Of a stretch of 64,000 nucleotides of DNA, positions 5,440 to 18,050 are shown piece after piece; position 1 is the first letter of the stretch, and each line of letters opens with the position of its first letter. The notes beneath the pieces are model-generated. The model did not search any database. It was not told where the DNA came from and saw only the letters and a list, made by a program, of their open reading frames with translations. The stretch lies in the NCBI RefSeq assembly GCF_009831625.1, contig NZ_WUUS01000003.1, positions 124,001-188,000 on the forward strand, given 5' to 3'. The translations under genes and the position numbers were made by a program. This DNA is from Halobaculum saliterrae (GTDB lineage Archaea; Halobacteriota; Halobacteria; Halobacteriales; Haloferacaceae).

Positions 5440-6365
5440 TCACTCGAGGGCGTTCCGGTGCTTGCGGAGCGTCACGGGTGTCACGTCCGCAGCCGTCGCC
5501 AACTCCGCTTGACTGAACCGATCGCGGACATTCAACTCTCGCGCTGCGACGAGGATCGCCCCGCCGGCGATCCCCGACGGGTTCGCGCTGGTCTCGACCA
5601 CAGACGGGGACGCGTGGAGGATGTCACGGGCTCGGCGTTCAACCGCTCGTGGGAGGTCCAGCGCCGACACGAGCTTCGGGAGGAACGTCGCCGGCTCACG
5701 CGGCGGCACCGGCAACCCCAGTTCCCGGTTGAGAACGGTGTAGGCGTTGCTCACCCGCGAGCGTCCCCCTGCGCGACGCGGTTCACGTCGCCCCGTGTCT
5801 CGGGGCGGCCGTTGCACCGGCACGCCGCGTACAGGGCCGCGGCGCTCATCGCCTCGATCGATCGACCCACGAGGAGACCGTCCTCCTGGGCGGAGCTGAA
5901 CAGCCGACACGCCTGATCCCGGATCGATCTCCCGAGTCCGAGCGCGCCGACCATCCGACGGATCTGTGAGAGGCCGTACGCCTGGTTTCGCTCGGCTTTC
6001 GACGCCGTGTTCGCTCGACGATGCTCGCGTCGGAGTCGGGCAAATCGGCGTCGCGTCTCCCCGTCGAGCGGCCGGCCGTGGGCGTCACGCTTCCGGCCGA
6101 TCTCCGTCGAAAGGCCACGATCGTGTCGCGCCGGCGTCCGCGGGGCGCCGGTCCGAGCTCGCGCGGTCTCGGCGTCGTCATCGTTGAACGTTCGCCACTC
6201 CGCTCCGGGATCGACCTGTTCGTCGGCAAGTACGAGCCCACAGTCGTCACATACCACCTCCGCGAGGTTCATCGTTACCCGCCCGCCACAGTCGGGACAG
6301 GTATTCGCGGTCGTCTGTCGGGTCGATTCGTCGAACCGTCGGTCGTACACAGCGTCTCCGTGCAT
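5440..6365 (-). pseudogene. tfb: transcription initiation factor TFB with a -1 frameshift
   Basis: From ATG 6365 the first frame gives a B-finger zinc ribbon (Cys 23, 26, 39, 42; CPDCGGR..CDDCGLV), a linker and cyclin repeat I (QAYGLSQIRRMVGALGL...AAALYAACR), then stops at 5751. The second repeat (SRVSNAYTVLNRELGL...SQAELATAADVTPVTLRKHRNALE) continues in another frame to 5440. Restoring one base near 5758-5770, around five C residues, rejoins them as QGD-R-SRVSNAY, giving ~308 residues, normal for TFB. TFB recruits RNA polymerase to TATA/TBP. As written only repeat I is translated, so the factor should be inactive unless the gap is a sequencing error or recoded. It carries a copy of the 31-nt leader motif. 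Confidence 0.9.
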
Positions 6366-6390
6366 CGTCGGTCACGAGGCACGCCTTCCG

Positions 6391-6421
6391 GCGCCCCTCG
6401 CCCGTCCCGGGGCCCAGAAAC
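6391..6421 (-). promoter_or_regulatory. 31-nt hairpin leader, copy in front of the TFB gene
   Basis: On the minus strand GTTTCT fills columns 1-6. GCCCC (9-13) can pair with GGGGC (25-29), and the loop holds GACGGGCG. Column 1 is 56 nt before ATG 6365. It aligns without gaps to four other copies in this element, with column pair 11/27 being C-G here. Confidence 0.75.
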
Positions 6422-6435
6422 ACCCCCGGCTGCGC

Positions 6436-6894
6436 TCACCCGTTTCCCGATAGGGGCTTGCGACCGCGGCGAACGCACTCGAAACAGGGCAGGTCCCCTA
6501 GGTCCGCGCAGTCACACCAGTCAGGCCCGTCGGCCGACTCGCTGGTTTCCGTCTCTTGACCCAGCGACTCCGTTGACTCCGACTCCGAAGCATCCTGCAC
6601 ACCACCGTCGACGACGGGGTGTGCTGCCGCCGCCTCACGGACCGGCGTGTGGATGGCGACTGCGAGTCGGTGTTTGCACGCCGGGTTGTAGTGCTCGTCC
6701 GCAGGGCACTCACACGCAATCGGGAGGTCACCGTCTATCGTGACGACGTAGCTATGCTCGCTCGGCTCCGCATAGCTGTGATTCGTCACGCGAACGCCAT
6801 CCGGAGTGAGCGAGAACGTGAACGGTTCCGTTTCGGCGCGACGGCGGGCGCCGGTCGAGACGTCGAGTCGGTCGAGAACGTGGCTCGAATCCAT
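6436..6894 (-). CDS. SWIM zinc-finger protein
   Basis: 152 residues from ATG 6894. A longer frame back to 7116 is rejected because it would run through the leader hairpin. Residues ~55-85 contain the SWIM signature CxC...CxH (CECPADEHYNPACKH), a zinc-binding fold found in transposases, MEKK1 and DNA- or protein-binding proteins. The C-terminus carries a second cysteine cluster (WCDCADLGDLPCFEC). Haloarchaeal plasmids and integrated elements often encode short SWIM proteins of unknown role. The gene is followed, across a short gap, by the broken TFB on the same strand, and each has its own leader hairpin. Confidence 0.85.
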   Translation of the reverse strand: MDSSHVLDRLDVSTGARRRAETEPFTFSLTPDGVRVTNHSYAEPSEHSYVVTIDGDLPIACECPADEHYNPACKHRLAVAIHTPVREAAAAHPVVDGGVQDASESESTESLGQETETSESADGPDWCDCADLGDLPCFECVRRGRKPLSGNG

Positions 6895-6911
6895 GGTGGG
6901 CAGGCACGCGA

Positions 6912-6942
6912 GTGCGCGCCACCCGTGGCGGCGCACACAAAC
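6912..6942 (-). promoter_or_regulatory. 31-nt hairpin leader, copy in front of the SWIM gene
   Basis: GTTTGT fills columns 1-6. GCGCC (9-13) lies opposite CGCGC (25-29), with one bulged C at column 13 and the pairing extended into columns 14-16. The loop region holds CACGGGTG. Column 1 is 48 nt before ATG 6894. Column pair 11/27 is G-C. Confidence 0.75.
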
Positions 6943-7227
6943 TACTCTGCGAGTCACGGGGACCACGCCGACGGTCATATAGATGGAAATGGCGGCTCCA
7001 ACGAGCGAGCCGCAGTAGTGGCAATCCCGGGTCGGGGAGGCGAGCCCGGTTTGGCGTGGTAACAGCTGAAGGCGGCTACACCCGCGAGCACAGATCGACA
7101 CGATACTGTTGGCCACATGCTACCTGCGGTGGGGCCAGTCGGACCCGTGACTCGCCGGCGTCATCCGAGTCGGACCGAGAGGGAAAACCCAGTCGTCGCT
7201 CGCGCCGGGAGGGTACTGTGGCCGCCG

Positions 7228-8289
7228 CTACGACCACCACGCTGCCAAGACGCGAAGCCAGTTCTCGCGGGCGATCGCTCGGACGTCGTTTTCACTATAC
7301 CCCCGCTCGCGGAGCGCGTCCAGAAGCGGGGGCACGCCGGTCACGTCGCCGATGGAGTTCGGAACGCCGGCGCCGTCGAAATCCGACCCGAGGGCGACGT
7401 GGTCGATACCCGCCACATCGACGATGTGGTCGATATGGGCAACCAGCGTCGATAGCGGCGTTTCAGGGTCGTCCTCACCGTCCGGGCGGAGCGTACTCGT
7501 AGCAAACGAGAGCCCGACGACCCCGTTCGAGTCGGCGATCGCCCGCAACTGGTCGTCGGTGAGGGTACGTGCGGACGGACAGACCGCGTGAGCGGCGGCG
7601 TGGCTCACGACCAACGGGGCATCAGTGAGTGCGTGCACGTCCTCGAATCCCGCCTGGTTCAGGTGCGCACAGTCGACGACGATGCCCCGGTTCTCGCAGG
7701 CGCGCACGAGGGCCCGCCCTGCGTCGGTGAGCCCGTCGCCGATGTCGGGCGTGGCGGGGTAGCGAAACGGGACGCCCTCACCGAAGGCGTTCGGCCGCGA
7801 CCAGACGAGGCCGATCGACCGGACGCCCGCAGCATAGAGGAACTCGAGGTTCGACAGATCCGGTGCGACGGCCGCAGCACCCTCCAAGTGTGGCACTGCA
7901 GCCACTGCCCCGCTGTCGAGACAGTCCTGAATGTCGGTGACGGAGCGTGCCACTCGAAAGCCCCCGTCGGCCCGCTCTCGCGCCTGTCGTTCGAGACGAT
8001 ACAGTCGTTCGAGCATCTCGTAGGTGACGCGTTTCGCCCGGGTGTGGTCAACCGGGTCGGCGAGAGGGATCTCGTAGCCGTCAGCCGTTTGCCGCCGATC
8101 GTACGCGCCGTCGGACGCCCCTTCGTTGGGGACGAAGACGGCGAACAGGCTGCCGCCGTACTCGGCGGCGTGTGCCCGCGGCAGATCAATGTGGCCGGCG
8201 TCGCTTCGCTCGAAGAACGACTGCCCGCCACCACGCTCGTCGACGTGTAACTCCAGAAGCGTATCGTTGTGGCCGTCGAAAACGCGCAT
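7228..8289 (-). CDS. membrane dipeptidase (peptidase family M19)
   Basis: 353 residues. Family M19 (renal dipeptidase) enzymes are zinc hydrolases that cleave dipeptides. Visible signature elements are the N-terminal DGHND (first metal ligands His7/Asp9), PHLEGA (bridging glutamate), VDCAHLNQAGFEDV, VVSHAAAHA (histidine ligands) and the C-terminal LGSDFDGAG substrate-binding motif. Length is normal. There is no signal peptide, so it is probably cytoplasmic as in other haloarchaea. It stands alone on the minus strand with no promoter-specific clue. It is a metabolic passenger inside an otherwise plasmid-like region. Confidence 0.92.
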   Translation of the reverse strand: MRVFDGHNDTLLELHVDERGGGQSFFERSDAGHIDLPRAHAAEYGGSLFAVFVPNEGASDGAYDRRQTADGYEIPLADPVDHTRAKRVTYEMLERLYRLERQARERADGGFRVARSVTDIQDCLDSGAVAAVPHLEGAAAVAPDLSNLEFLYAAGVRSIGLVWSRPNAFGEGVPFRYPATPDIGDGLTDAGRALVRACENRGIVVDCAHLNQAGFEDVHALTDAPLVVSHAAAHAVCPSARTLTDDQLRAIADSNGVVGLSFATSTLRPDGEDDPETPLSTLVAHIDHIVDVAGIDHVALGSDFDGAGVPNSIGDVTGVPPLLDALRERGYSENDVRAIARENWLRVLAAWWS

Positions 8290-8478
8290 ACTGCGGCGAC
8301 GCGCGGTCAGCTGTTAGGCGTTGTGGCGACGACCCCCTCGGAGGACCGTCACCAGCTGTTTACTTCCCTGTGCACGGCATCGAGTCTATCCGACTAGCCC
8401 GAGGGTGGGACCGGCCTCCATGGACTGCACGTCGCACGTCAGCCGACCGAGACCTCCGGAGCCGTCAGCAGACCCCGA

Positions 8479-9099
8479 TCACCCGATATCGCCGAATCGC
8501 AGGTCGTGCCTGCCGTCGGTTATCTCGACCAGTTCGCTGTGGAGGAACTGGTTCGCCATCGCCTCGCCGATCCGCTCTCGGTCGATCATCGCTCCCAGCG
8601 CTCGCTTCAGGCCTGCGAACTGCCCGCAAAGATAGTCGTCACCGGCTGGCTCGCCGTCACACCAGCGAACGGTCCGAACGGCGCCGTAGCCCAGCGTCGG
8701 GGCGTCGTCGATACGGTCGCTCTCGTACTGCAGCCCGAACCACAGCGTGCGGTACGCCGTCACCTCGAACCTCGAGTCGACGACGTACAGCGCCTCGTGG
8801 TGGAGGTAATCGAGGAGATCAGTCAAGACGGTTGCGAGGGTGACGCCCGTCTCCAGCGGCAGAACATCAACCTGCGTGTCCTGACCGCGGCCGTACTCGT
8901 CGGCGACCGTCTCCGGATCGACGCCGTCGGTGAGCGCTTCGTGCATCCGGCGTGCTCGACCCGACGAGTCGTCGGCTCCGTACGGTGTCCGCGGGGTGAG
9001 GGCGTGTTTCAGACGAAGGCCGTTCGCACCCCAGTGCGAGTAGTGGATGTTGTACGTGCTATCCGCCCGTTCGTACGCAACGAGTGCTCGGTGTCCCAT
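8479..9099 (-). CDS. conserved haloarchaeal protein, DUF6735-like
   Basis: 206 residues from ATG 9099 (MGHRALVAYERAD). The opening segment, with SHWGANGLRLKHALT, matches a family found widely on haloarchaeal plasmids and chromosomes that I recall as DUF6735. No catalytic motif is evident. It ends in a charged tail. The 31-nt hairpin leader sits 22 nt upstream, and the six bases before its ATG (GATTCC) resemble those before the next leader-bearing gene (GATTCG at 10230). Function unknown. Confidence 0.8.
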   Translation of the reverse strand: MGHRALVAYERADSTYNIHYSHWGANGLRLKHALTPRTPYGADDSSGRARRMHEALTDGVDPETVADEYGRGQDTQVDVLPLETGVTLATVLTDLLDYLHHEALYVVDSRFEVTAYRTLWFGLQYESDRIDDAPTLGYGAVRTVRWCDGEPAGDDYLCGQFAGLKRALGAMIDRERIGEAMANQFLHSELVEITDGRHDLRFGDIG

Positions 9100-9120
9100 G
9101 GAATCCGAGGGACGACTGGT

Positions 9121-9151
9121 ACGCCCCTCGCCCGTCACGGGGCACACAAAC
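9121..9151 (-). promoter_or_regulatory. 31-nt hairpin leader, copy in front of the DUF6735-like gene
   Basis: GTTTGT fills columns 1-6. GCCCC (9-13) pairs perfectly with GGGGC (25-29), and the loop is GTGACGGGCGA. Column 1 is 52 nt before ATG 9099. Column pair 11/27 is C-G. Confidence 0.75.
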
Positions 9152-9270
9152 CCGCAGATCTCGCGGTACGGATCGGTATCGATACCTACCTTTCATCATG
9201 GATAGCCTGAAATTCCATACCAGGTGTGGCGCCCCCGGCTGACAGTCGGTCACCGGTCGGCACCGAGCGA

Positions 9271-10230
9271 TCACGTATCGTGAGGGCTGTCGCGACAGGG
9301 GTACGCCTCATCGATTGCGGTGTGAATCGTTTCCGCGGTTGAGCTGATCCGTTCCAACCGCTCGCGGATCACCGTCGTGTCGTCGCCGGCCCACGAGGCC
9401 AGATAGAACGCCGACCCGCTCGCATCCACCCCGCACGCTCGTGCGACCACGTACGCGACCGCCTCGGCCTCCACCTCCCGCTTCGCCCGTTCGGTCTCGT
9501 CGTCGACGCCGACATGCAACTGGGCGTGTGCGTACTCGTGGACGAGTGTTCGCGCGAGGTCCGCCCGGTTCGATCGGTCTCGCACCTCGATCACCGGCGT
9601 CTCACCGGGTCCACGCGCCGGCCGACAGATCCCGTTCGCGTCCCCGTGCTCCCACGCACCGTCGGCGACGATCTCGACCGACGCCCCGAGTTGTGAGGCG
9701 GCGTCGATTAGGCGCTCGACGAGGTCGCCCGCCTCACCGGTCGCTTCGTGATCCAGCTCCGGCAGCGGCTCGCCCTCCGTCTGTGAGATGTCGAACACGG
9801 GCACCGGCCGGAACCCGACCACCCCCTCGTCCCACTCCTCGGGCGGCGTCGCGTCGTACTCGCAGTCGCTGTCTGCGTGGTACGACGGCGCGTTCTCACA
9901 TTCGGGACACCGCGTCGTGATGATCGGCGCCCAGATCCAGATCGCCGATGCTCCCTCCTGCACCTGCCGGTCGAACTCCTCCTGCCACGCCCGATACCCC
10001 GCAACCCGCCTCGCGTCGGGCTGTTGTTGCGTGATCAGCATCGTGTTTCGTGCCGAGTAGTCGTGGAACCGACTCTGGACGTCGAGCCACGCCTGGAACG
10101 CCTCACTCGCCCGTGCGTCCTCGGTCGCGGTCACGAGGTCGTCGATCCACTGGTCGATCGCGCTGTGCATCTCGTCGCGTCTGGAGTCGGTCTCGTCGAA
10201 GGAGACCGTGGGATCACTCGAAGCCATCAT
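9271..10230 (-). CDS. ArdC-like ssDNA-binding domain fused to M78 (ImmA/IrrE) metallopeptidase
   Basis: 319 residues from ATG 10230 (or 10227). The N-terminal ~150 residues resemble the ArdC antirestriction single-strand DNA-binding domain (FHDYSARNTMLITQQ...RVAGYRAWQEEF), with an inserted cysteine pair (RCPEC). Residues ~180-290 form a zincin domain with HEYAH at 231-235 and a following glutamate-rich helix (VEAEAVAYVVA). ArdC proteins shield incoming single-stranded plasmid DNA during conjugation, and M78 domains cleave repressors or antirestriction partners. This agrees with a transferable element. It carries the hairpin leader. Confidence 0.88.
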   Translation of the reverse strand: MMASSDPTVSFDETDSRRDEMHSAIDQWIDDLVTATEDARASEAFQAWLDVQSRFHDYSARNTMLITQQQPDARRVAGYRAWQEEFDRQVQEGASAIWIWAPIITTRCPECENAPSYHADSDCEYDATPPEEWDEGVVGFRPVPVFDISQTEGEPLPELDHEATGEAGDLVERLIDAASQLGASVEIVADGAWEHGDANGICRPARGPGETPVIEVRDRSNRADLARTLVHEYAHAQLHVGVDDETERAKREVEAEAVAYVVARACGVDASGSAFYLASWAGDDTTVIRERLERISSTAETIHTAIDEAYPCRDSPHDT

Positions 10231-10260
10231 CGAATCCGGGACCCGTCGAGATTCGTCGGG

Positions 10261-10291
10261 ACGCGCCCCGCCCGCCAGGGCGCAAACAAAC
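10261..10291 (-). promoter_or_regulatory. 31-nt hairpin leader, copy in front of the ArdC/M78 gene
   Basis: GTTTGT fills columns 1-6. GCGCC (9-13) pairs with GGCGC (25-29), and the loop holds GGCGGGCG, a variant with G instead of A at column 17. Column 1 is 61 nt before ATG 10230. Column pair 11/27 is G-C. Confidence 0.72.
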
Positions 10292-10353
10292 TCGCTGATG
10301 GCCGAGCACCTCGAACAAGAGCCGAGCGAAACCGACTGGTCTGTCACCGAGTG

Positions 10354-10599
10354 CTACACAGGCGACGACGGCCGTCTCCGACGACGTGAGCGTCCCGGCT
10401 TCGGACGCGGGATACAGAATCTCCGATCTGCCCTGTTCTCATACGTCATCTGCACCAGCCTATCGAGCTCGTTTCGAAGTTCGATCGTTGTTGTGGGGGT
10501 CGTCTCATCCCTCACAGACGAACAGAGAGGGAAACGAGGATACTGTCGTTCCTCCGACATCAAAAGGATTGGAGTGAGCAATTCGCAACAGCATCCCAT
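10354..10599 (-). CDS. possible small hypothetical protein
   Basis: 81 codons from ATG 10599, or 68 from ATG 10560. The segment YPRFPLCSSVRDETTPTTT and the LRNELDRLVQMTYENRADR helix read like coding sequence. The arginine-rich C-terminal tail looks out of frame, so a frameshift after the helix is possible. A CTTTTTAC string at 10623-10629 is at TATA distance from ATG 10599, but also lies just past the VapC stop. Not recognised. Confidence 0.35.
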   Translation of the reverse strand: MGCCCELLTPILLMSEERQYPRFPLCSSVRDETTPTTTIELRNELDRLVQMTYENRADRRFCIPRPKPGRSRRRRRPSSPV

Positions 10600-10622
10600 C
10601 AGTACCCTTGGAGTAGAAGTAG

Positions 10623-10629
10623 TAAAAAG
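10623..10629 (-). promoter_or_regulatory. CTTTTTA string: TATA box or poly-T terminator
   Basis: It lies 24-30 nt past the VapC stop codon and 24-30 nt before ATG 10599. It could end the vapBC transcript, start the small gene, or both. Confidence 0.4.
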
Positions 10630-10652
10630 AGAATTTCAACCGTGTCGCTGAG

Positions 10653-11057
10653 TCAGTATGTGACAACCCCTAATCCGTCGACCCCTTGGAAATCGGAATC
10701 ATTCGAAATGACCGGTTCATCGAGGAGGAGTCCATGAGCAGCGACGACGGAATCCGCCCCGTCGAGCTGTGCTGCTGAATCGGACGTGATGTGATGTCCA
10801 TTCAGCTCGCCCGCTCGCCGAGCTACCTGAGATGTCAACTCCAACGTTGATCGACTCGTACTAAGTCGCTCGTAGAGCATCCGCAGCTGCTCGGCCGTGT
10901 CGGTATCAGCTGCGTTCCCGATTCCAGTATACGCCTCCCAGACGACAGCAGTCGGGATTCGGATCGGGATTCCGTCTTCTTCAAGCTCTGCTGCCTTCGC
11001 TCTCGCATCTTCGTCCCGATCGACGAGCGCTCCGAGAGACTGTGTATCGAGAATCAT
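10653..11057 (-). CDS. vapC: VapC-like PIN-domain toxin
   Basis: 134 residues. PIN-domain ribonucleases cleave RNA with four acidic residues around Mg2+. Visible here are Asp4 (MILDTQS), Glu in VVWEAYTGIG (~41), Asp in LDGADSVVAAHG (~100) and Asp in SNDSDFQGV (~120). The length is typical for VapC. Its ATG overlaps the stop of the upstream antitoxin gene (TGA 11056-11054), the usual coupled arrangement. The antitoxin has a nonsense codon, so either the toxin is unopposed, a truncated antitoxin restarts downstream, or another locus neutralises it. Confidence 0.88.
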   Translation of the reverse strand: MILDTQSLGALVDRDEDARAKAAELEEDGIPIRIPTAVVWEAYTGIGNAADTDTAEQLRMLYERLSTSRSTLELTSQVARRAGELNGHHITSDSAAQLDGADSVVAAHGLLLDEPVISNDSDFQGVDGLGVVTY

Positions 11058-11269
11058 TCGTGCGTGGGCGGCGTCGCGCCCACGGCCCCATCTGTCGCTT
11101 CTTCGACGCTGAAATCCAAATCAAGTTCGGCAGCGTCATCAGCAAAGTCCGTAAGAGAGTAGCCGCCGACGAGCCGATCCAATGTCTCTGAGAGCGTTTC
11201 TCCGTCCTTATTCTCGCTCTGCACCCGTGCTTAGAGGTCCTCGCTGATCCGGATTTGTTTCGTTCCCAT
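11054..11269 (-). pseudogene. vapB: VapB-like antitoxin with premature stop
   Basis: From ATG 11269 the frame reads MGTKQIRISEDL, then TAA at 11233-11231, then continues ARVQSENKDGETLSETLDRL..SLTDFADDAAELDLDF to a stop overlapping vapC. The uninterrupted reading would be 71 residues with an N-terminal ribbon DNA-binding part and an acidic C-terminal toxin-binding tail. A Tyr codon (TAC or TAT) to TAA change is the simplest cause. GTG 11224 could restart translation, leaving the toxin-binding part without the DNA-binding end. Confidence 0.85.
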
Positions 11270-11467
11270 ACAGACTCGTTGACGCCGTTGACAGTTCAGC
11301 CTACCGCCGCGTGTTGGACGTCAGGATCGAGCCTCGATGCTTCCCGTGGTTTAGTCGGAGACTCTCACTCGACCATCGGCCTGAGAGGGTCGTGGCTGCG
11401 CGCACAGCGACCGCAGGGAGCGAGCACGGAGCGGTGGGTGGGGCGGCGGGGTTTGGGCGGTCTGGCA

Positions 11468-11480
11468 CAAAATAAAAAAA
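11468..11480 (-). terminator. poly-T terminator of the OB-fold gene
   Basis: Minus-strand TTTTTTTATTTTG about 20 nt after the stop at 11499. It is the only long T tract nearby and fits archaeal T-rich, factor-independent termination. Confidence 0.6.
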
Positions 11481-11498
11481 GAGGAGGCGCCGCCCCAG

Positions 11499-12359
11499 TT
11501 ACTTCCACCAACGGCCGCGCTCGGGAAAGTGGACCGACGTCGACCGCGTCACAGCCAGCGAGACGCGTCCCTCGTACCAGTTCCGCGCCGCACCGCGGAG
11601 ACACACCCGTTCGCCCTCGTGCATCCACGGAGCGTTCGACTTCTTCCAGACCGTCACCCGGGTTGTCCCGCTCTCGTCGGCGACGAGTCCGACCTGCGCG
11701 ATACTCGGATGCGACGGCTCCCACAGCGTCTCGACACGGCCTGCAATGCTCACTTCGTGTCGTGACACCTCCTCCAGTTCGTCGATCGGGATGACCGTTC
11801 CTGGCCGCCGTCGCTCGGCCTCTGTCACGGCTACGCTCGCGCTGAGGACGCCCTTTCCTTGTTGAACCTTCTCAGCCAGTCGCCGACTCACGGCCGCCCG
11901 TGTCCCGCTCTCGCGCACGTCTCGGGCGATCCGCTTGGCTTGCTCGTTCACTGCCGCCAGCTCCTCACGACCCAGCGTTTCCCGTGGGTCGCGTCCCGGC
12001 TCGAACGCCGGCTCCACGCTCGCCGCTCGCTCCCGGAACTCACGGGCCGACTCTGCCGCCCGCTCACGTGTACACACCCGACTGCCCTGCTCGCGCAGCG
12101 AGGACTGCGTCCGCCGCCGCTCGCGCGTTCGCTCCTTCTCCGCCTCACGGGCCTCCCACTTCTCCTGGGCTTCCAGCGTCATCCCGTACGGGTGATCCAG
12201 CTCGTCCGTGTCGGCGACCTTCTCGATCGCCTCCGAATCGACCTTCGCCTGCGTCCGCAACTCGACTGTCGCCCGCAGCTCCGGCTCGTCGTCCGCGACA
12301 TCTTGGTTACCGCTCGATACTGCCGAATCCTTTTCATCGAAGACACGATTACGTTCCAT
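11499..12359 (-). CDS. OB-fold (RPA-like) DNA-binding protein with coiled N-terminus
   Basis: 286 residues from ATG 12359. Residues ~55-190 are highly charged and probably helical or coiled (EAQEKWEAREAEKERTRERRRTQ...). Residues ~195-280 form an RPA-type OB fold: SIAGRVETLWEPSHPSIAQVGLV, TRVTVWKKS, GERVCLRGA, YEGRVSLAVT. Such fusions are common on haloarchaeal plasmids and probably bind single-stranded DNA during replication or transfer. A perfect 8-bp hairpin with loop TTGGGG occupies its 5' leader, but it lacks the GTTTGT of the 31-nt family. A poly-T terminator follows. Confidence 0.8.
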   Translation of the reverse strand: MERNRVFDEKDSAVSSGNQDVADDEPELRATVELRTQAKVDSEAIEKVADTDELDHPYGMTLEAQEKWEAREAEKERTRERRRTQSSLREQGSRVCTRERAAESAREFRERAASVEPAFEPGRDPRETLGREELAAVNEQAKRIARDVRESGTRAAVSRRLAEKVQQGKGVLSASVAVTEAERRRPGTVIPIDELEEVSRHEVSIAGRVETLWEPSHPSIAQVGLVADESGTTRVTVWKKSNAPWMHEGERVCLRGAARNWYEGRVSLAVTRSTSVHFPERGRWWK

Positions 12360-12447
12360 TGCAGACCTCGAAGGCGCTCGCGACGCGCCCGACATCCCGC
12401 GCCCCAACGCGGGATTTCCTCACGGACCACGCCGACCAGTCACGACT

Positions 12448-12502
12448 GCGCGCTCTCGCTCGCGCCTTCGCGAGCGCCCTGTGGGCGCGAGCGAGAGCGC
12501 GC
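12448..12502. repeat. 19-bp perfect inverted repeat with 17-nt loop
   Basis: Left arm GCGCGCTCTCGCTCGCGCC (12448-12466) is the exact reverse complement of 12484-12502. The loop (TTCGCGAGCGCCCTGTG) includes GCGAGCGC, related to the arms. It could be a protein-binding site, a terminator or a relic of a mobile repeat. Confidence 0.85.
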
Positions 12503-12536
12503 CCGCGACGGTGACCCCAACCAGCGCCGCGCGGCG

Positions 12537-12561
12537 TCTCACCGAGCGAAGCGAGGTGAGA
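12537..12561. repeat. modular hairpin 1 (loop GAGCGAAGCGA)
   Basis: Stem TCTCACC / GGTGAGA, loop GAGCGAAGCGA. First of three hairpins in 118 nt that have different stems but nearly the same loop. Confidence 0.8.
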
Positions 12562-12563
12562 GT

Positions 12564-12590
12564 CGGGACACGAACGGAGTGAGTGTCCCG
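12564..12590. repeat. modular hairpin 2 (loop GAACGGAGTGA)
   Basis: Stem CGGGACAC / GTGTCCCG (8 bp), loop GAACGGAGTGA. The stem is unrelated to hairpin 1, and the loop differs at only three positions. Confidence 0.8.
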
Positions 12591-12628
12591 AACAGCCGCC
12601 CGGTGCGAGCGCCCAGCGGAGTATGCGT

Positions 12629-12654
12629 CGGGGGTGAGCGACAGCGAGCCCCCG
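12629..12654. repeat. modular hairpin 3 (loop GAGCGACAGCGA)
   Basis: Stem CGGGGG(T) / (G)CCCCCG, loop GAGCGACAGCGA. The loop matches hairpin 1 with one inserted base. Confidence 0.75.
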
Positions 12655-12843
12655 GCGGATACCCGCTGGCGCCGAGGGCACATGCACTTCAGCCCGGAAT
12701 GGCGCGACTTCAGGGAGCGCCACACGCCCGGAATGGTCGGTCGCGAGCGACGCGGAGGGCGGCAGCGGCGAGCGGGGCGAGCCGAAAACGTGTCATTGGT
12801 CACAAACCGAACCGCTTTGCGTCGGCCGTCGGCAGACCAACGC

Positions 12844-13659
12844 ATGTCGACGGCACCATGGCGGTACATCGGCGTGGACTGGGACTCTGGAGCGTGGGTC
12901 GCAGTCGGCTATCCGACGGATGGAGAGCCCGCCATCGAGATCTTCGATACGATCGACGAGCTGTGGCAGGAACACGGCGATAGCGCCAACCGGATCGTCG
13001 TCGACATCCCGATCGGTCTGTGCGGGTCACTTGACGACCCAGGCGACTGTCTCAAACATGACGAGACTCTCTCCCGACGGTGTGATCGCCTCGCTCGCAA
13101 GGTGATCGGTCCCCGCTCGTCGTCGGTGTTCCCGGCCCCCTGCAGCGCGGCCGTCAACGCAGCGAGCAATAACGCGGCAACCTACAGCGAGATCAACGAG
13201 ACGAACCGAGAGCACACGGGAAAGGGCCTCACGCAACAGGCTGCAAGCATTGCGGATGGAATCCGTCAGGTCGATGCGTTGCTGGAGACGACGGCCGCAG
13301 ACGAGACGGTCGTCGAGGGGCATCCAGAAGTCTGCTTCAGAGCGTTCGCCGACGAGGACCTCCAGTTCAACAAGTCGACCGTCCAAGGAATGGTTACGCG
13401 ATTGGATGCGATGGCGGCGAGTACCGAGTACGAACCAGGTAGTTGGCGGGACTTAGCCCGCCAGCTCGATGGGAACCCTGGTATCGGGACCGACGACCTA
13501 ATCGACGCTCTCGGACTGGCGCTAACAGCCCGCGCCGGTCCTGATGAAATTCAAACGCTCCCGAACACCGAGTCGCTCCCGACCGACACGCGAGGGCGAC
13601 CGATGCGGATAGTTTATCGCCGGTCAGAGCCGTTCGCGGTCGAGCTGTCCGCGAACTGA
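12844..13659 (+). CDS. DUF429 family protein
   Basis: 271 residues from ATG 12844. The frame is open further upstream, but that part is the hairpin region. DUF429 is an RNase H-like-fold family of unknown function. Visible elements are the N-terminal YIGVDWDSGAWVAV, IVVDIPIGL, a cysteine-rich CDRLARKVIGPRSSSVFPAPC segment and VEGHPEVCFRAFA, with a late DDLIDALGLALTARAG helix, all typical. It is expressed divergently from the OB-fold gene. The 3' end overlaps the convergent zinc-protein gene by 46 nt. Confidence 0.85.
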   Translation: MSTAPWRYIGVDWDSGAWVAVGYPTDGEPAIEIFDTIDELWQEHGDSANRIVVDIPIGLCGSLDDPGDCLKHDETLSRRCDRLARKVIGPRSSSVFPAPCSAAVNAASNNAATYSEINETNREHTGKGLTQQAASIADGIRQVDALLETTAADETVVEGHPEVCFRAFADEDLQFNKSTVQGMVTRLDAMAASTEYEPGSWRDLARQLDGNPGIGTDDLIDALGLALTARAGPDEIQTLPNTESLPTDTRGRPMRIVYRRSEPFAVELSAN

Positions 13660-13973
13660 ACAGCATGATCCTCGGGGTCGCGCGTCCAGTGGGTCGCCGG
13701 CCCGTCCGGGCTACACTCGCCACACAGTTGGATCACGCCGTCCAGACGGCCGACCTCAACGCGGAACGAGGTGAGGGCCGCCGCGGTATCGAGGCCGAGC
13801 CCACAGCCGTCACATGCGACCAGGTCGGCCCGTTGTGCCGTCCGCTCGCGGACCGCACAGTCGACGCAGATCGGATGCGTCACGAGGTCGTCGACGCCCC
13901 ACGTGTGGGCGTCCCCGACATCAACCCCGGGCCCGGCGTCACAGAAGGCACAGCCGGTCACGGTGCGTCTCAT
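13614..13973 (-). CDS. small zinc-ribbon-like protein with four CxxC pairs
   Basis: 119 residues with CAFC (8-11), CVDC (~36), CDGC (~54) and CGEC (~85), enough for two zinc sites. It starts at ATG 13973, which overlaps the stop of the upstream 96-residue gene by 4 nt (ATGA), so the two are translationally coupled. Small multi-CxxC proteins are abundant in haloarchaea and elements, but their roles are mostly unknown. I do not recognise a named family. Confidence 0.75.
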   Translation of the reverse strand: MRRTVTGCAFCDAGPGVDVGDAHTWGVDDLVTHPICVDCAVRERTAQRADLVACDGCGLGLDTAAALTSFRVEVGRLDGVIQLCGECSPDGPATHWTRDPEDHAVQFADSSTANGSDRR

Positions 13974-14260
13974 TCGTCCACCCCGCCGCCGGTTCGTGCC
14001 GTCGCCCAGCCACGGTGAAACGCTGCCAACTGGCGCCGCGACCGGAACGCAACGCCCGACAGATTGTGGACGAATACCCGCGGGTCGGAACGTGCCGTGA
14101 CGACGTCGGCGGCGATGAGATCGTCGACGAGCTCCCGAGCAAACGCCGCGGTCACGTCGGCCGTCTCGACCCGGTCGGCATCCCGGTCCCGGGCGAGCTG
14201 TTCACGTTCGAAGCGGTCGCGGTCTGTCCGTGCGTCCTCGAAGTGGTCAAAGTCAGTCAT
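13970..14260 (-). CDS. small hypothetical protein of the element
   Basis: 96 residues from ATG 14260. It is highly charged, with a helical N-terminal half (TDRDRFEREQLARDRDADRVE) followed by VTAAFARELVDDLIAADVVTARSDPRVFVHNLSG, which could be a winged-helix-like fold. It forms a two-gene operon with the downstream CxxC protein (4-nt overlap). It is preceded by a copy of the 31-nt hairpin leader and is divergent from the transfer ATPase gene. Not recognised. Confidence 0.7.
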   Translation of the reverse strand: MTDFDHFEDARTDRDRFEREQLARDRDADRVETADVTAAFARELVDDLIAADVVTARSDPRVFVHNLSGVAFRSRRQLAAFHRGWATARTGGGVDE

Positions 14261-14281
14261 AACAATGCGACACGCCACAAC

Positions 14282-14312
14282 GCGCGCCGCACCCGTCGCG
14301 GCGCCGACAAAC
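14282..14312 (-). promoter_or_regulatory. 31-nt hairpin leader, copy in front of the 96-residue gene
   Basis: GTTTGT fills columns 1-6. GCGCC (9-13) pairs with GGCGC (25-29), extended to 7 bp by columns 14-15 with 23-24, and the loop is GACGGGT. Column 1 is 52 nt before ATG 14260. This is the cleanest stem of the five, and column pair 11/27 is G-C. Confidence 0.78.
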
Positions 14313-14561
14313 AACCACGCGGGCGGGACCGCCCGGGGCCGACCGGTCGCTCCGGCCCGGCCGAGGCAAGCACCCACGGCGCGCAGCGAGGCCCGGCCGG
14401 GCGAGCGGTCGGGGGCGGGCACTCCGTTTCACCCCACCGAACACTGTGTCCCGCCGTGAGTACTTCGCCGGTCACCGAGAGCGACACGTACGATGCACAT
14501 CGCTCACAGCACGAATGCCCCGCACCGGACGCCAACAACAAGTCCGGCCGACAGTTGACCG
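14313..14561. other. gene-free region between divergent operons
   Basis: It contains two GCCCGGCCG direct/inverted repeats (about 14353-14400) and the second copy of the 15-nt shared sequence (14452-14466). It must hold the promoter of the ATPase gene, but no convincing TATA box is visible. Confidence 0.5.
14452..14466 (+). promoter_or_regulatory. 15-nt sequence shared with the pilin-like operon upstream region
   Basis: CGCCGTGAGTACTTC, identical to 1104-1090 on the minus strand. It lies 95 nt before ATG 14562. Confidence 0.4.
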
Positions 14562-17500
14562 ATGGCTGCCCGCGTCTACCTCGAGATCACGCCCAGCCCG
14601 GACCCGCTGCCGGCCGAGCGAATCACCGACCAGTTTGAGCAGCTCCACCACACCCTCGACGACTACACGATCGAAGTCCTCCTCACGACCGACGGCGACG
14701 ATATCGACTACTACCTCGGGACGGCGGCGACGGGCTTTGACGCGCTGCGTCGCGTCGCGAGCCGGCTGCTCCCCGACAGGTACGCGCTCGCAACCCACAA
14801 AGCCGACCCCCTCGCCGATCTCCCGACGGAGGCGGCCGCGATCGCGGAGCTCCACGGCGTCGGCGAGCGTCGCGACGACTGGCAGACGCGTCTCCGTCCG
14901 CCGGCACTCTCCGACGCGCCGGAGCAACACGACACCGCCCGCGTCGAGGACGCCCCCACGCTTCCGCTCACCTCCGTCGTGGAGGGGCTGGCTGCCGCCG
15001 ACTTTCCGACCGCCTACCAGGCGCTGCTCCACCCCAAGCCTGACTGGAGCGGCGAAGCGGAGGCTCGCGTTCGGCGCCTCGACCGCGAGCGCGACACCGT
15101 CGGCCAGCGCCTCACCGGTGCCCTCCTCCCGATCGATGACGACCACGACCCGGGCGACGACGATCGCCACGCCCCGCGCCGGTCGGCCCACCGCCGCGGC
15201 GACACCGGTAGCGTCCCGGGCACCCGGATCGACGCGATCCTCGCGAAGTCCGCCCGCAATTGCTACGACGTGAACGCTCGAGTGCTCGCGGCCGGCCCGA
15301 ACGCCGCCCGCCGCGCCCGCGATCTGGCGGCGACGTTCACCGCCGTCGGGGGCGACTTCTATGACCTGCGGCCGGTCACCCACGACGACCCGGGGGACGC
15401 GCTTCGCGAGGCGATCCGCACGCGGACGCTTCGCGACCCGCCGGCCACGCGTCGGCTGGCCCGCTGCCTCCCGCTCGCGAGCAACCAGTCGCCGCGGATC
15501 GTCGCCGACTCGACGACCGTCCCGCACGTCGCCCTCCTGGACGGCGCAGCGCTCACCGAGACGGCCCGTCGCGCACTCGGCGCCCTCCCCGCGGAGCGAA
15601 CGGGACTCGCGCCGCCGCCGGCGGACGCGCTCGCCCGGTACGACCGTGGGCTCGCGATCGGGCGACCACGCACCAGAGACGGCACCGCGACGGACACGAC
15701 GGTCGCGCTCCCGCCATCCCTCCAACCGTTGCACGTCGCGTGGTTCGGGAAGACTGGCTCCGGGAAATCCACAGCCTTGGTTCGCGCTATCACCGAGGAC
15801 CACGCAGTGACTGACGGGGCAGACGTCTGTATCCTCCCGAAGGGCGACGAGATGGCGACGACCCTGTTGCGCACCCACTACGCCGCACACGGCGACCTCG
15901 ACGATGTCTACTACTTCGACTGCAGCGAGACGGTCCCGGCGCTGTCGCTGTTCGACATCCGCGACGATCTGGCGGCGGGGGTCTCCCGAACGACGGCGGT
16001 CCAGGACGTCACCGACCACTACCTCGAACTGCTCCGGGCGATCACGGGCGCCGAGGCGTTCGACAGCGCCGTCCGCTCGCCGGACGTGATCCGGTATCTC
16101 GTGAAGGCGCTGTTCGACCCCGAGTACGGCGCCGATGCGTTCGCCCACCGCGACCTGGAGCGGGCGGTCCACCGCTTTCGCCGGGAGGGGGAGCCGCCGC
16201 TGGTGAGCGATGATGACCTCCGGGCGATGCTGGCGGGCGTCGCCGAGAACGACCCGCAGGCGTTCGCTCGGATCATGCAGGGCGTCGCGAACCGCGTCGA
16301 AAAAGTGCCCCTGGACGACCGGCTCGCCCGCGTGTTCAACCACGTCGCCGGCGACGACACGCCGACGTTCGACCTCGCGACCGTGCTCGACGAGGACGCG
16401 CTCGTCGTCATTGACACGGGCGGGGTGCGAGCGAAGAGCCAGCAGTCGCTGGCGCTCGTCGTGCTGTCGAACCTCTGGAGCGCCCTGCGGCAGCGGCATC
16501 GACGCCGAGAGGAGGACGACCTCCCGCTGGTCAACCTCTATCTCGAGGAGGCGGCGGATCTCGCGGTGTCGGACGTCTTGAGCGACCTGCTCGCGCAGTC
16601 GCGGGCGTTCGGACTGAGCGTGACGCTGGCGATGCAGTTCCCGGGCCAGCTCCGCGAGACGGACCCGGAGACGTACAGCGAGCTGATGAACAACGTCTCG
16701 ACACTCGTCACGGGTAACGTCGCCTTGGACACCCGCCTCCAGCAGCGGCTCGCGACCGACGAGATGGATGCCGAGGCGGTCGGTACCCGGCTTCGAGCGC
16801 TCTCCCGTGGCGAGTGGCTCACCACGTTACCGGCGCCGTTCGACGACCCCGAGCCGCAGCCGTTCGTCGTCGAGTCGCTCCCGTTGCCGGCGGGGCACCC
16901 GGAGACCGACGACGGCCTCTCCGATGCGCGCCAGGCAGCGTTTCGGGCGGAGGTCGAGATGCTGGTCCGTCGAACCCGCGCGGAGGCGGGACTCACGCTC
17001 GCGGACCCGGGATCTGCGAACGCGGTGGCGGCCGGCGGCACCCGTTCTCCCGGAGCTGACCGCCCCGGGAACGACCTCGACTCGGCGCTGCCGATGACTG
17101 ACCGGCTGCCGGAGTGCGTCCGGTACGAAGAGGCGCCGCATGCGATCGTCTGCGAGACGTGTGACGGGCGGTATGAGCCGACGGTCGAGGGGATCCGTCG
17201 CGGCGTCGGCTGCTGTGGATCCCGTGCGGATATCGACCGCGATGACGTGCCGATCTGTGCGGTTCCGCTCACGCTTTCGGAACGCGAGCGCAACGCGGCC
17301 GACCACAGCCACGAACAGTTGTTGTTCCTCCAGGCGGTGTACATGGCCCAACAGGGTCGATTCGAACCGCTCGCCTACGATCTCCTCCGGGACGGGATGG
17401 ACACGCTCCGACGAGACTGTGGCCTCGATAGTGACGCCGTCGAGGAGTTGCTCGGCGCCGGCCTGCTCAGACACGACGGGGACACGCCACACACGCTGTA

Positions 17501-18050
17501 CACGGTGACCCCCGAGGGCCGCAACCGCTTACGGGAACCACACCGCGAGGGTGACGCCCACGGTCACGGCGCGGGAGACCTCGCGGAGTCGAGCCTCCAC
17601 ACGCTGCTTGTCGAGCTGGGCCGCCGGTACATTCGACAGGAGTACGTCGACGACGAGGGGTCGCAGGCTGTCGAGGCGGTGAGCTACTACGATATGGCCG
17701 ACGGTGAGGGTCGGTACGACGCGGTCGGCCTCGATGCCGACGGCGAGGTGGTCGTCACGTTGGAGGCCGAGCGGGTCAACCATGACCGCTACACCGCGGT
17801 CCCCGACGATTACGACAAGCTCGCGGCGCCCGATCCCGAGGCCGCGGTCTGGGTGACGAAGAACGGCGCCGCGGGCCACGACGTGTTGCAGGCGCTCAAC
17901 CGCCCTGCCGACGACCACCCCCGTGTTGAGAAGAGCTACAGCGAGAACTCGCCGCCGAGCAAGTGGCGGATCGACACGCCCGGGTTCACTGAGTTGGAAA
18001 CGGCGGTCACGTTGCTCCGCGATCTCGATCATGCCTCGACCGATGGGTGA
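14562..18050 (+). CDS. VirB4/TraG/HerA-superfamily conjugation-type ATPase with extra C-terminal domains
   Basis: 1162 residues. The N-terminal ~380 residues are an element-type adaptor domain. The ATPase core has Walker A GKTGSGKS (~396-403), LPKGDEMATTLLR after it, Walker B in LVNLYLEEAADLAV (~656) and AMQFPGQLRE (the usual Q-rich sensor). This is the HerA/VirB4/VirD4 fold that pumps DNA or protein. After ~residue 840 comes a cysteine cluster (CETCDG..CCGS), a winged helix (HEQLLFLQAVYMAQQGRF...) and a terminal module with YDAVGLDADGEVVVTLEAERV...AVWVTKN, which looks like a PD-(D/E)XK-type core (inference). It is the likely motor of transfer of the element. Confidence 0.85.
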   Translation: MAARVYLEITPSPDPLPAERITDQFEQLHHTLDDYTIEVLLTTDGDDIDYYLGTAATGFDALRRVASRLLPDRYALATHKADPLADLPTEAAAIAELHGVGERRDDWQTRLRPPALSDAPEQHDTARVEDAPTLPLTSVVEGLAAADFPTAYQALLHPKPDWSGEAEARVRRLDRERDTVGQRLTGALLPIDDDHDPGDDDRHAPRRSAHRRGDTGSVPGTRIDAILAKSARNCYDVNARVLAAGPNAARRARDLAATFTAVGGDFYDLRPVTHDDPGDALREAIRTRTLRDPPATRRLARCLPLASNQSPRIVADSTTVPHVALLDGAALTETARRALGALPAERTGLAPPPADALARYDRGLAIGRPRTRDGTATDTTVALPPSLQPLHVAWFGKTGSGKSTALVRAITEDHAVTDGADVCILPKGDEMATTLLRTHYAAHGDLDDVYYFDCSETVPALSLFDIRDDLAAGVSRTTAVQDVTDHYLELLRAITGAEAFDSAVRSPDVIRYLVKALFDPEYGADAFAHRDLERAVHRFRREGEPPLVSDDDLRAMLAGVAENDPQAFARIMQGVANRVEKVPLDDRLARVFNHVAGDDTPTFDLATVLDEDALVVIDTGGVRAKSQQSLALVVLSNLWSALRQRHRRREEDDLPLVNLYLEEAADLAVSDVLSDLLAQSRAFGLSVTLAMQFPGQLRETDPETYSELMNNVSTLVTGNVALDTRLQQRLATDEMDAEAVGTRLRALSRGEWLTTLPAPFDDPEPQPFVVESLPLPAGHPETDDGLSDARQAAFRAEVEMLVRRTRAEAGLTLADPGSANAVAAGGTRSPGADRPGNDLDSALPMTDRLPECVRYEEAPHAIVCETCDGRYEPTVEGIRRGVGCCGSRADIDRDDVPICAVPLTLSERERNAADHSHEQLLFLQAVYMAQQGRFEPLAYDLLRDGMDTLRRDCGLDSDAVEELLGAGLLRHDGDTPHTLYTVTPEGRNRLREPHREGDAHGHGAGDLAESSLHTLLVELGRRYIRQEYVDDEGSQAVEAVSYYDMADGEGRYDAVGLDADGEVVVTLEAERVNHDRYTAVPDDYDKLAAPDPEAAVWVTKNGAAGHDVLQALNRPADDHPRVEKSYSENSPPSKWRIDTPGFTELETAVTLLRDLDHASTDG

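Follow-up and report, generated by a model that had tools for sequence, protein, structure and literature searches.

In bacterial leader attenuators and in the platforms of translational riboswitches, a shared strand pairs with one of two alternative partners, and one of these partners lies beside the ribosome-binding site. We have analyzed a repeated element of apparently similar logic in a stretch of 64,000 nucleotides (nt) from the haloarchaeon Halobaculum saliterrae (contig NZ_WUUS01000003.1, positions 124,001 to 188,000 of the forward strand; this whole stretch is called the window), where it stands before five genes. Like the bacterial systems, the element is predicted to be a 5' leader whose shared strand can pair with either of two partners; unlike these, it is archaeal, is present in many copies per plasmid before unrelated genes, and has a very small constant part, no terminator T-run and no Rfam family. 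Judged from sequence, it has the appearance of a common switch, new to the literature, in front of many haloarchaeal plasmid genes, and no description of it was found among open-licence PubMed Central (PMC) papers.

In Halobacterium salinarum, 271 of 394 genes (69%) with growth-phase-dependent over-translation are located on megaplasmids; nine TBP/TFB paralogues belong to the over-translated group, and a common translational regulator, an "RNA regulon", was proposed (PMC3225822, published in 2007, excerpt). Another passage states that the effect on plasmid genes was confined to H. salinarum and was absent from H. volcanii. Matches to the element are present on pNRC200 (five, one of them before a TFB gene) and pHS3 (four); these are too few to account for 68% of all megaplasmid genes or for the whole effect, and the link between the element and the RNA regulon is put forward here as a hypothesis. 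The element provides a concrete cis-acting sequence with which the proposed regulon can be tested. Short repeated intergenic sequences before haloarchaeal mobile-element genes are also known from halovirus HF2; as described in part of that report (PMC8707807), they hold AT motifs and are proven promoters with TATA and BRE, whereas the element described here is GC-rich, lacks a TATA sequence and has two locus-specific helices. Structured leaders were called "not typical in haloarchaea" on the basis of start-site mapping in H. volcanii, at least in the excerpted text of PMC4983044, and the element is a candidate counter-example. Furthermore, it could open a route to an archaeal RNA-binding regulator or signal and could be used to recognize genes of plasmid origin in the genomes of haloarchaea.

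Copies in the window and in haloarchaeal genomes

First-pass annotation of the window had described five minus-strand blocks, aligned without gaps over 31 columns, at 6391-6421, 6912-6942, 9121-9151, 10261-10291 and 14282-14312. Pattern and covariance scans bore this out. A 29-nt pattern with up to 3 mismatches had exactly five matches in the 64 kb, as compared to a mean of 0.02 per shuffle in 100 dinucleotide shuffles. A covariance model run with filters off scored the five copies with 34.0 to 42.7 bits and the next-best of 25 matches with 11.3 bits; its 50 training sequences (alignment A2) included the five window copies and had been chosen by eye from a pattern-match listing, leaving out duplicates and apparent chance matches. 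The fixed features are as described, namely GTTTGT with one variant GTTTCT, GCSCC, RCGGGYG and SGC. The proposed pairing of columns 9-13 with 25-29 has one exception in copy 2, which has a C-C mismatch at 13/25 and a predicted longer hairpin in a shifted register. The compensatory exchange at columns 11/27 is real, with G-C in copies 2, 4 and 5 and C-G in copies 1 and 3. The block starts 48-61 nt before the ATG in all five copies, again as annotated.

Copy 1 (29-nt pattern at 6393-6421, 38.2 bits) consists of GTTTCT, arm A, the loop and arm C; it stands before a TFB gene and begins 14 nt past the stop codon of the SWIM gene. Copy 2 (6914-6942, 34.0 bits) precedes this SWIM gene, copy 3 (9123-9151, 42.7 bits) a DUF6735 gene, copy 4 (10263-10291, 38.8 bits) an ArdC/M78-like gene, and copy 5 (14284-14312, 42.0 bits) a small protein gene, which is followed by a DUF7558 gene. 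All are on the minus strand, and the carriers are those given in the first-pass annotation, the ArdC/M78-like match lying below the Pfam cut-offs.

The element is real and widespread across the haloarchaeal order, on plasmids and elsewhere. A stricter exact pattern matched 148 of 392 genomes of the order, its reverse 2 of 392; a pattern with the stem pair left free and up to 2 mismatches matched 67 of 293 genomes, the reversed pattern 4. The count with the strict pattern is preferred because the tally obtained with the model at E ≤ 0.05 (296 of 392 genomes) includes chance matches. In a phylum sample of 148 genomes searched at E ≤ 0.01, matches were found in 15 genomes of the order (the source genome included, up to 16 matches each) and in 15 genomes outside the order, the latter having just one or two weak ones apiece, the best with E 8.5e-5. 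When the strict pattern was run against 84,980 GTDB species genomes, 70 stretches were obtained, 58 haloarchaeal by title and 12 bacterial; the bacterial ones were taken as chance. Among the 58, 10 are plasmid and 6 chromosome by title; the plasmid share cannot be stated because most are draft contigs or scaffolds. A search of viral contigs with two strict exact patterns returned no stretch.

All six named plasmids that were scanned have matches at E ≤ 0.05: pNRC200 5, pHS3 4, pNG600 8, pJ7-1 10, pKBTZ03_355 5 and pCBA1230-02 25. These plasmids had been picked as carriers of relatives of a window gene or as well known. On pCBA1230-02 all 25 matches lie on one strand; one of the 10 on pJ7-1 is weak, partial and on the opposite strand. 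Variants in loop or stem length (28-32 nt) were seen on pCBA1230-02, pNG600, pJ7-1 and pNRC200, for example an 8-bp stem with a 7-nt loop on pNRC200, and a model admitting such variants would probably find more copies.

A model search, which had been suggested together with the first-pass annotation, found further copies before the same gene families. Among 141 copies (131 loci and the window), 124 are followed by an open frame of at least 50 amino acids (aa) picked by a simple rule. The largest downstream families are TFB (40), ArdC/M78-like (18), a small unknown family (15), another unknown one (9) and two of 8 members, one with a SWIM domain above the Pfam cut-off and the other just under it. 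Recurrent carriers are TFB, ArdC/M78-like, SWIM, DUF6735, DUF6610 and small unknowns. In 106 of the 141 copies, belonging to ten recurrent families, an ATG lies 18-46 nt past the block; these 106 were used for all start-codon analyses, and 35 rows were dropped.

Positions on plasmids were counted for 46 of 56 matches with E ≤ 0.01, in stretches of five named plasmids. None of these 46 has its middle inside an annotated coding sequence, and 35 are followed by an annotated start on the same strand 5-60 nt downstream. The upstream gene is co-directional in 33, its stop lying within 100 nt in 21, and oppositely oriented in 13. The element is thus located on the sense strand, directly before start codons.

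Rfam release 15 (4227 models) gave no match at the gathering threshold in the window and in the plasmid stretches L170-L172. At E up to 1, the region 6300-14500 of the window gave three matches, none at a copy; the only cis-regulatory family named in this permissive scan, xerDC RNA (RF03062), lies at 8097-8207 within the frame of an M19 dipeptidase gene; its 26 bits (E 0.51) fall far short of the gathering threshold of 72.5, and it is considered a chance match.

Two helices sharing arm C

From the 5' end, the element is composed of GUUUKU, arm A (GCSCC), loop segment B (mostly RANGGGY), arm C (GGSGC plus flanks), a spacer, segment D and the AUG, often with a weak Shine-Dalgarno (SD) sequence between D and AUG. 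Segment D, located between block and ATG, has the typical forms GTGCCTCG, CCCCTCG and GCGTCTCG. The sequence between block and ATG had been annotated as not conserved; this is correct for its letters and incorrect for its pairing, since D is complementary to the 3' arm of the block.

Locus-specific complementarity was determined for 108 non-redundant copies by 200 swaps. Clear signals were obtained for A:C (z 12.7) and C:D (z 11.8) only, the remaining 19 of 21 region pairs ranging from z -3.8 to 2.2. After clustering at 70% identity, 31 leaders still gave z 6.2 for A:C with Watson-Crick pairs, and for C:D z 3.6 with Watson-Crick pairs and 7.0 with G-U. Furthermore, 31 non-redundant copies whose 29-mers were absent from the first set showed C:D scores of 17.1 as compared to 13.7 after swapping and A:C scores of 15.8 as compared to 12.3, neither value being reached in any of 2000 swaps. 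These copies came from five named plasmids and were found with model R1; related leaders remain among them, and copies on pCBA1230-02 identical to those of the first set were excluded. A:C is built into the model with which most copies were detected, and its share is therefore favoured by the search; C:D is part of no search model.

The strong covariation at columns 11/27 was confirmed with 82 distinct sequences, representing all 99 listed pattern matches with none dropped and with both columns free in the pattern: 64 are Watson-Crick and 3 G-U, as compared to a mean of 32 and a maximum of 48 in 10,000 shuffles. We rely on this count rather than on the 0.93 bits by which the pair stands out in another copy set, because the scan that gathered that set rewarded this very pair. 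When G-U was allowed, the excess of C:D rose from 1.45 to 3.41, and when the mirror pair A-C was allowed instead it fell to 1.14. A gain with G-U without a mirror gain is expected of sense-strand RNA; this is supportive, not decisive, because the G-U asymmetry is partly base composition.

Pairing is thus kept by compensatory change, and one strand has two partners. A:C and C:D are mutually exclusive within one molecule because the same bases of C serve both; A and D are alike (z 3.8) because both match C. The C:D helix has a median length of 8 base pairs (bp), and the median position of its end is -10 relative to the ATG (93 of 106 loci, helix score at least 14); in 93 helices the loop between C and D measures anything from 2 to 28 nt and the spacing is not fixed, which suits RNA better than DNA half-sites. 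It is very probable that the element is an RNA with two exclusive folds, here called fold I (A:C) and fold II (C:D). A third helix, A:B, was not accepted as proven: A can pair with B, but the swaps gave z 0.9, and A:B is kept as a possibility.

In the window, segments D were located by complementarity scan and fold prediction, all on the minus strand. Copy 1 has its D at 6374-6385, and C:D is the predicted minimum with -30.3 kcal/mol, as compared to -22.7 kcal/mol with A:C forced. In copy 3, CGAGGGGCG at 9106-9114 pairs with CGTCCCTCG, and in copy 5, TGCGGCGCGC at 14264-14275 pairs with GCGTGTCGCA. For copy 2, fold prediction gave a possible D at 6898-6909, forming a bulged helix that extends into the loop segment; with -22.5 kcal/mol this is weaker than the register-shifted hairpin of A:C type (-26.2 kcal/mol), and the ungapped complementarity score is low (11). 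Copy 4 has a weak D, GTCCCG at 10237-10242, and its predicted minimum is A:C with -26.1 kcal/mol, as compared to -23.0 kcal/mol for the alternative.

A putative translational switch and its alternatives

With a probability of roughly 0.6, the element is a translational leader switch read by a trans-acting factor. Each copy would be a cis-acting mRNA element of about 50-70 nt directly before the start codon, transcribed as part of the mRNA. Arm C would pair either with A or, over about 8 bp ending near -10, with D, and the two folds may interconvert in vivo. Fold II would hinder the 30S subunit by abutting the SD sequence, which fold I would free. The trans-acting factor may be a protein, less likely a small RNA or a metabolite, and would read the constant GUUUKU and the loop; the letters of the stem are unlikely to be read because they vary between copies of one plasmid. 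Thereby many plasmid cistrons, operon-internal genes included, might be set together in translation. Fold II was predicted to be the more stable one in 72 of 106 loci. More tentatively, one widespread factor might read this two-state leader at as many as roughly 25 cistrons of a plasmid, forming a plasmid-wide RNA regulon which couples translation to growth or plasmid state and may underlie part of the growth-phase-dependent megaplasmid translation in H. salinarum; we consider this extension conceivable rather than probable.

The ribosome-binding context was examined in the same loci. GTGA peaks at -9, and SD-like 4-mers are present at -16 to -4 in 63 of 106 loci, as compared to 17% of windows inside genes; these counts are not independent because 40 of the 106 are TFB leaders. 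Both features suit leadered or internal cistrons. Among distinct copies, the loop is most often GAGGGGU. With its letters GGGUG, and frequently in the form GANGGGYG(A), it is similar to an SD sequence, the consensus in haloarchaea being GGAGGUGA as given in part of PMC8241225; such a loop could be a standby site or a decoy.

Several observations weigh against the switch. The region -12 to +3 opens only a little more in fold I than in fold II (mean difference 0.04; up in 51 and down in 33 of 106 loci), and because of this small difference direct masking of the SD sequence appears weak and the on/off direction is a guess. Fold energies scatter widely (standard deviation 6 kcal/mol, 30 of 106 loci within 3) and were calculated with standard parameters, not for haloarchaeal salt. 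In the window, copies 1, 3 and 5 are predicted to adopt fold II and copies 2 and 4 are not. With 9 clusters at 65% identity, C:D falls to z 3.3 (range 1.8-4.7), and the use of model R1 favours A:C in the loci that it retrieved. G:T makes up 24% of both own and swapped C:D helices (C:A 4% vs 11%). A:C shows no gain with G-U, and a DNA dyad would give the same result. Finally, for 11 of the 46 plasmid copies the annotation gives no start 5-60 nt downstream; several of these copies show an ATG by eye, and the PLSDB gene table is incomplete.

The first-pass annotation had named a 5' untranslated RNA, an attenuation signal and a DNA operator as possible explanations. The RNA is favoured by the locus-specific C:D helix, its variable spacing, the position relative to genes and the lack of a promoter. 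For an RNA thermometer or a Rho-like signal, also mentioned there, no support was seen, no direct test of either being made; the start region is little affected by either fold. An unlikely alternative that we retain is an operator or promoter in double-stranded DNA which serves a plasmid regulator; A, B, C and D would then be half-sites of one protein, the arms would co-vary with changing protein specificity and GTTTDT could be a degenerate TATA box. The missing G-U gain of A:C fits this explanation, and so do the likeness of A and D, although any two strands matching C must be alike, and a weak joint signal of B and C in the same orientation (z 2.9); B, however, resembles a half-site and does not follow A (z 0.9). 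C and D have centre distances of 11-35 nt and loops of 2-28 nt, unlike the fixed spacing of half-sites, and G-U pairs aid C:D where mirror pairs do not, which is partly a matter of composition. HF2, with its repeated intergenic promoters (PMC8707807, in part), offers a precedent for the operator, but the promoter signals expected from it were not seen. No AT peak at a fixed upstream distance was detected in 108 copies. TTTAWA with 1 mismatch occurs at -100 to -10 in 18 of 103 loci as compared to 33 expected from letter shuffles, so that the annotated lack of a TATA-like hexamer just upstream holds in the window and beyond. Exact TATA-like words between block and ATG were found in 0 of 106 loci, these counts being silent on GTTTDT itself as TATA. 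Neither an archaeal promoter with TATA/BRE nor one of the HF2 type was thus recognized. GTTTDT is TATA-like, and about 26 nt further on there is a C/R step. Taken as a TATA box, with transcription beginning near +29, GTTTDT is disfavoured, since arm C would lie outside the transcript in spite of its locus-by-locus match with D. Moreover, 21 of the 46 plasmid copies lie within 100 nt after a co-directional stop.

The latter position would suit an intercistronic element of RNA processing or stability, where an endonuclease cuts GUUUKU or the hairpin, the cistrons separate and their decay differs. Many copies do lie between co-directional genes, and processing sites between consecutive operon genes are described for H. 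salinarum and H. volcanii (PMC8303175, in part). Processing accounts neither for the complementarity of C to two partners nor for the median position of -10 at which D ends before the ATG, and 13 of the 46 plasmid copies are not intercistronic because their upstream gene is oppositely oriented; we consider this explanation quite unlikely. A metabolite riboswitch in the strict sense is very unlikely: a conserved leader with alternative pairing resembles riboswitch expression platforms, but the constant unpaired part of about 13 nt appears small for an aptamer, the downstream genes have no evident common pathway, and Rfam gave no match. An intrinsic-termination attenuator with alternative hairpins as in trp leaders would use the same segment logic of A:C versus C:D, but none of 106 loci (0 of 106) has TTTT anywhere from the block to the ATG, and its T-run being absent it is highly improbable.

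Genes of the window

The leader-bearing genes, the M19 dipeptidase gene and the PIN-domain gene described here are on the minus strand. The TFB reading frame after copy 1 (5751-6365) matches Pfam TFIIB with 4e-12. The TFB gene (5440-6365) looks frameshifted: its first frame is closed by a stop after 204 aa, and the C-terminal part lies in a different frame that reaches down to about 5440; a sequencing error, a pseudogene or a programmed frameshift are all possible. The SWIM zinc-finger protein is encoded at 6436-6894 (Pfam SWIM 2.1e-7) and the DUF6735 protein at 8479-9099 (Pfam DUF6735 1.3e-70). Between these two leader-bearing genes lies a membrane dipeptidase (M19) gene at 7228-8289, which has no leader of its own. 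The ArdC N-terminal-like/M78 peptidase-like protein (9271-10230) matches Pfam M78 with 1.6e-4 and ArdcN with 0.0033, both under the curated cut-off; among its relatives on plasmids (60-80% identity), most carry the annotation "ArdC-like ssDNA-binding" or "ImmA/IrrE". The small protein behind copy 5 (13970-14260, 96 aa) was assigned by family clustering and a Pfam scan to the recurrent family FAM2, without Pfam match, and the DUF7558 gene following it was identified at 13614-13973 by Pfam scan.

A PIN-domain (VapC-like) gene is located at 10653-11270; the antitoxin-like frame preceding it has, as read by eye, an in-frame stop after about 12 codons. A large protein encoded at 14562-18050 shows a weak match to type IV coupling proteins, and the protein encoded at 11499-12407 shows weak OB-fold matches; these suggest an integrated conjugative-plasmid-like element in the window. 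Several leader-bearing plasmids also encode proteins annotated "DNA-binding protein" or OB-fold.

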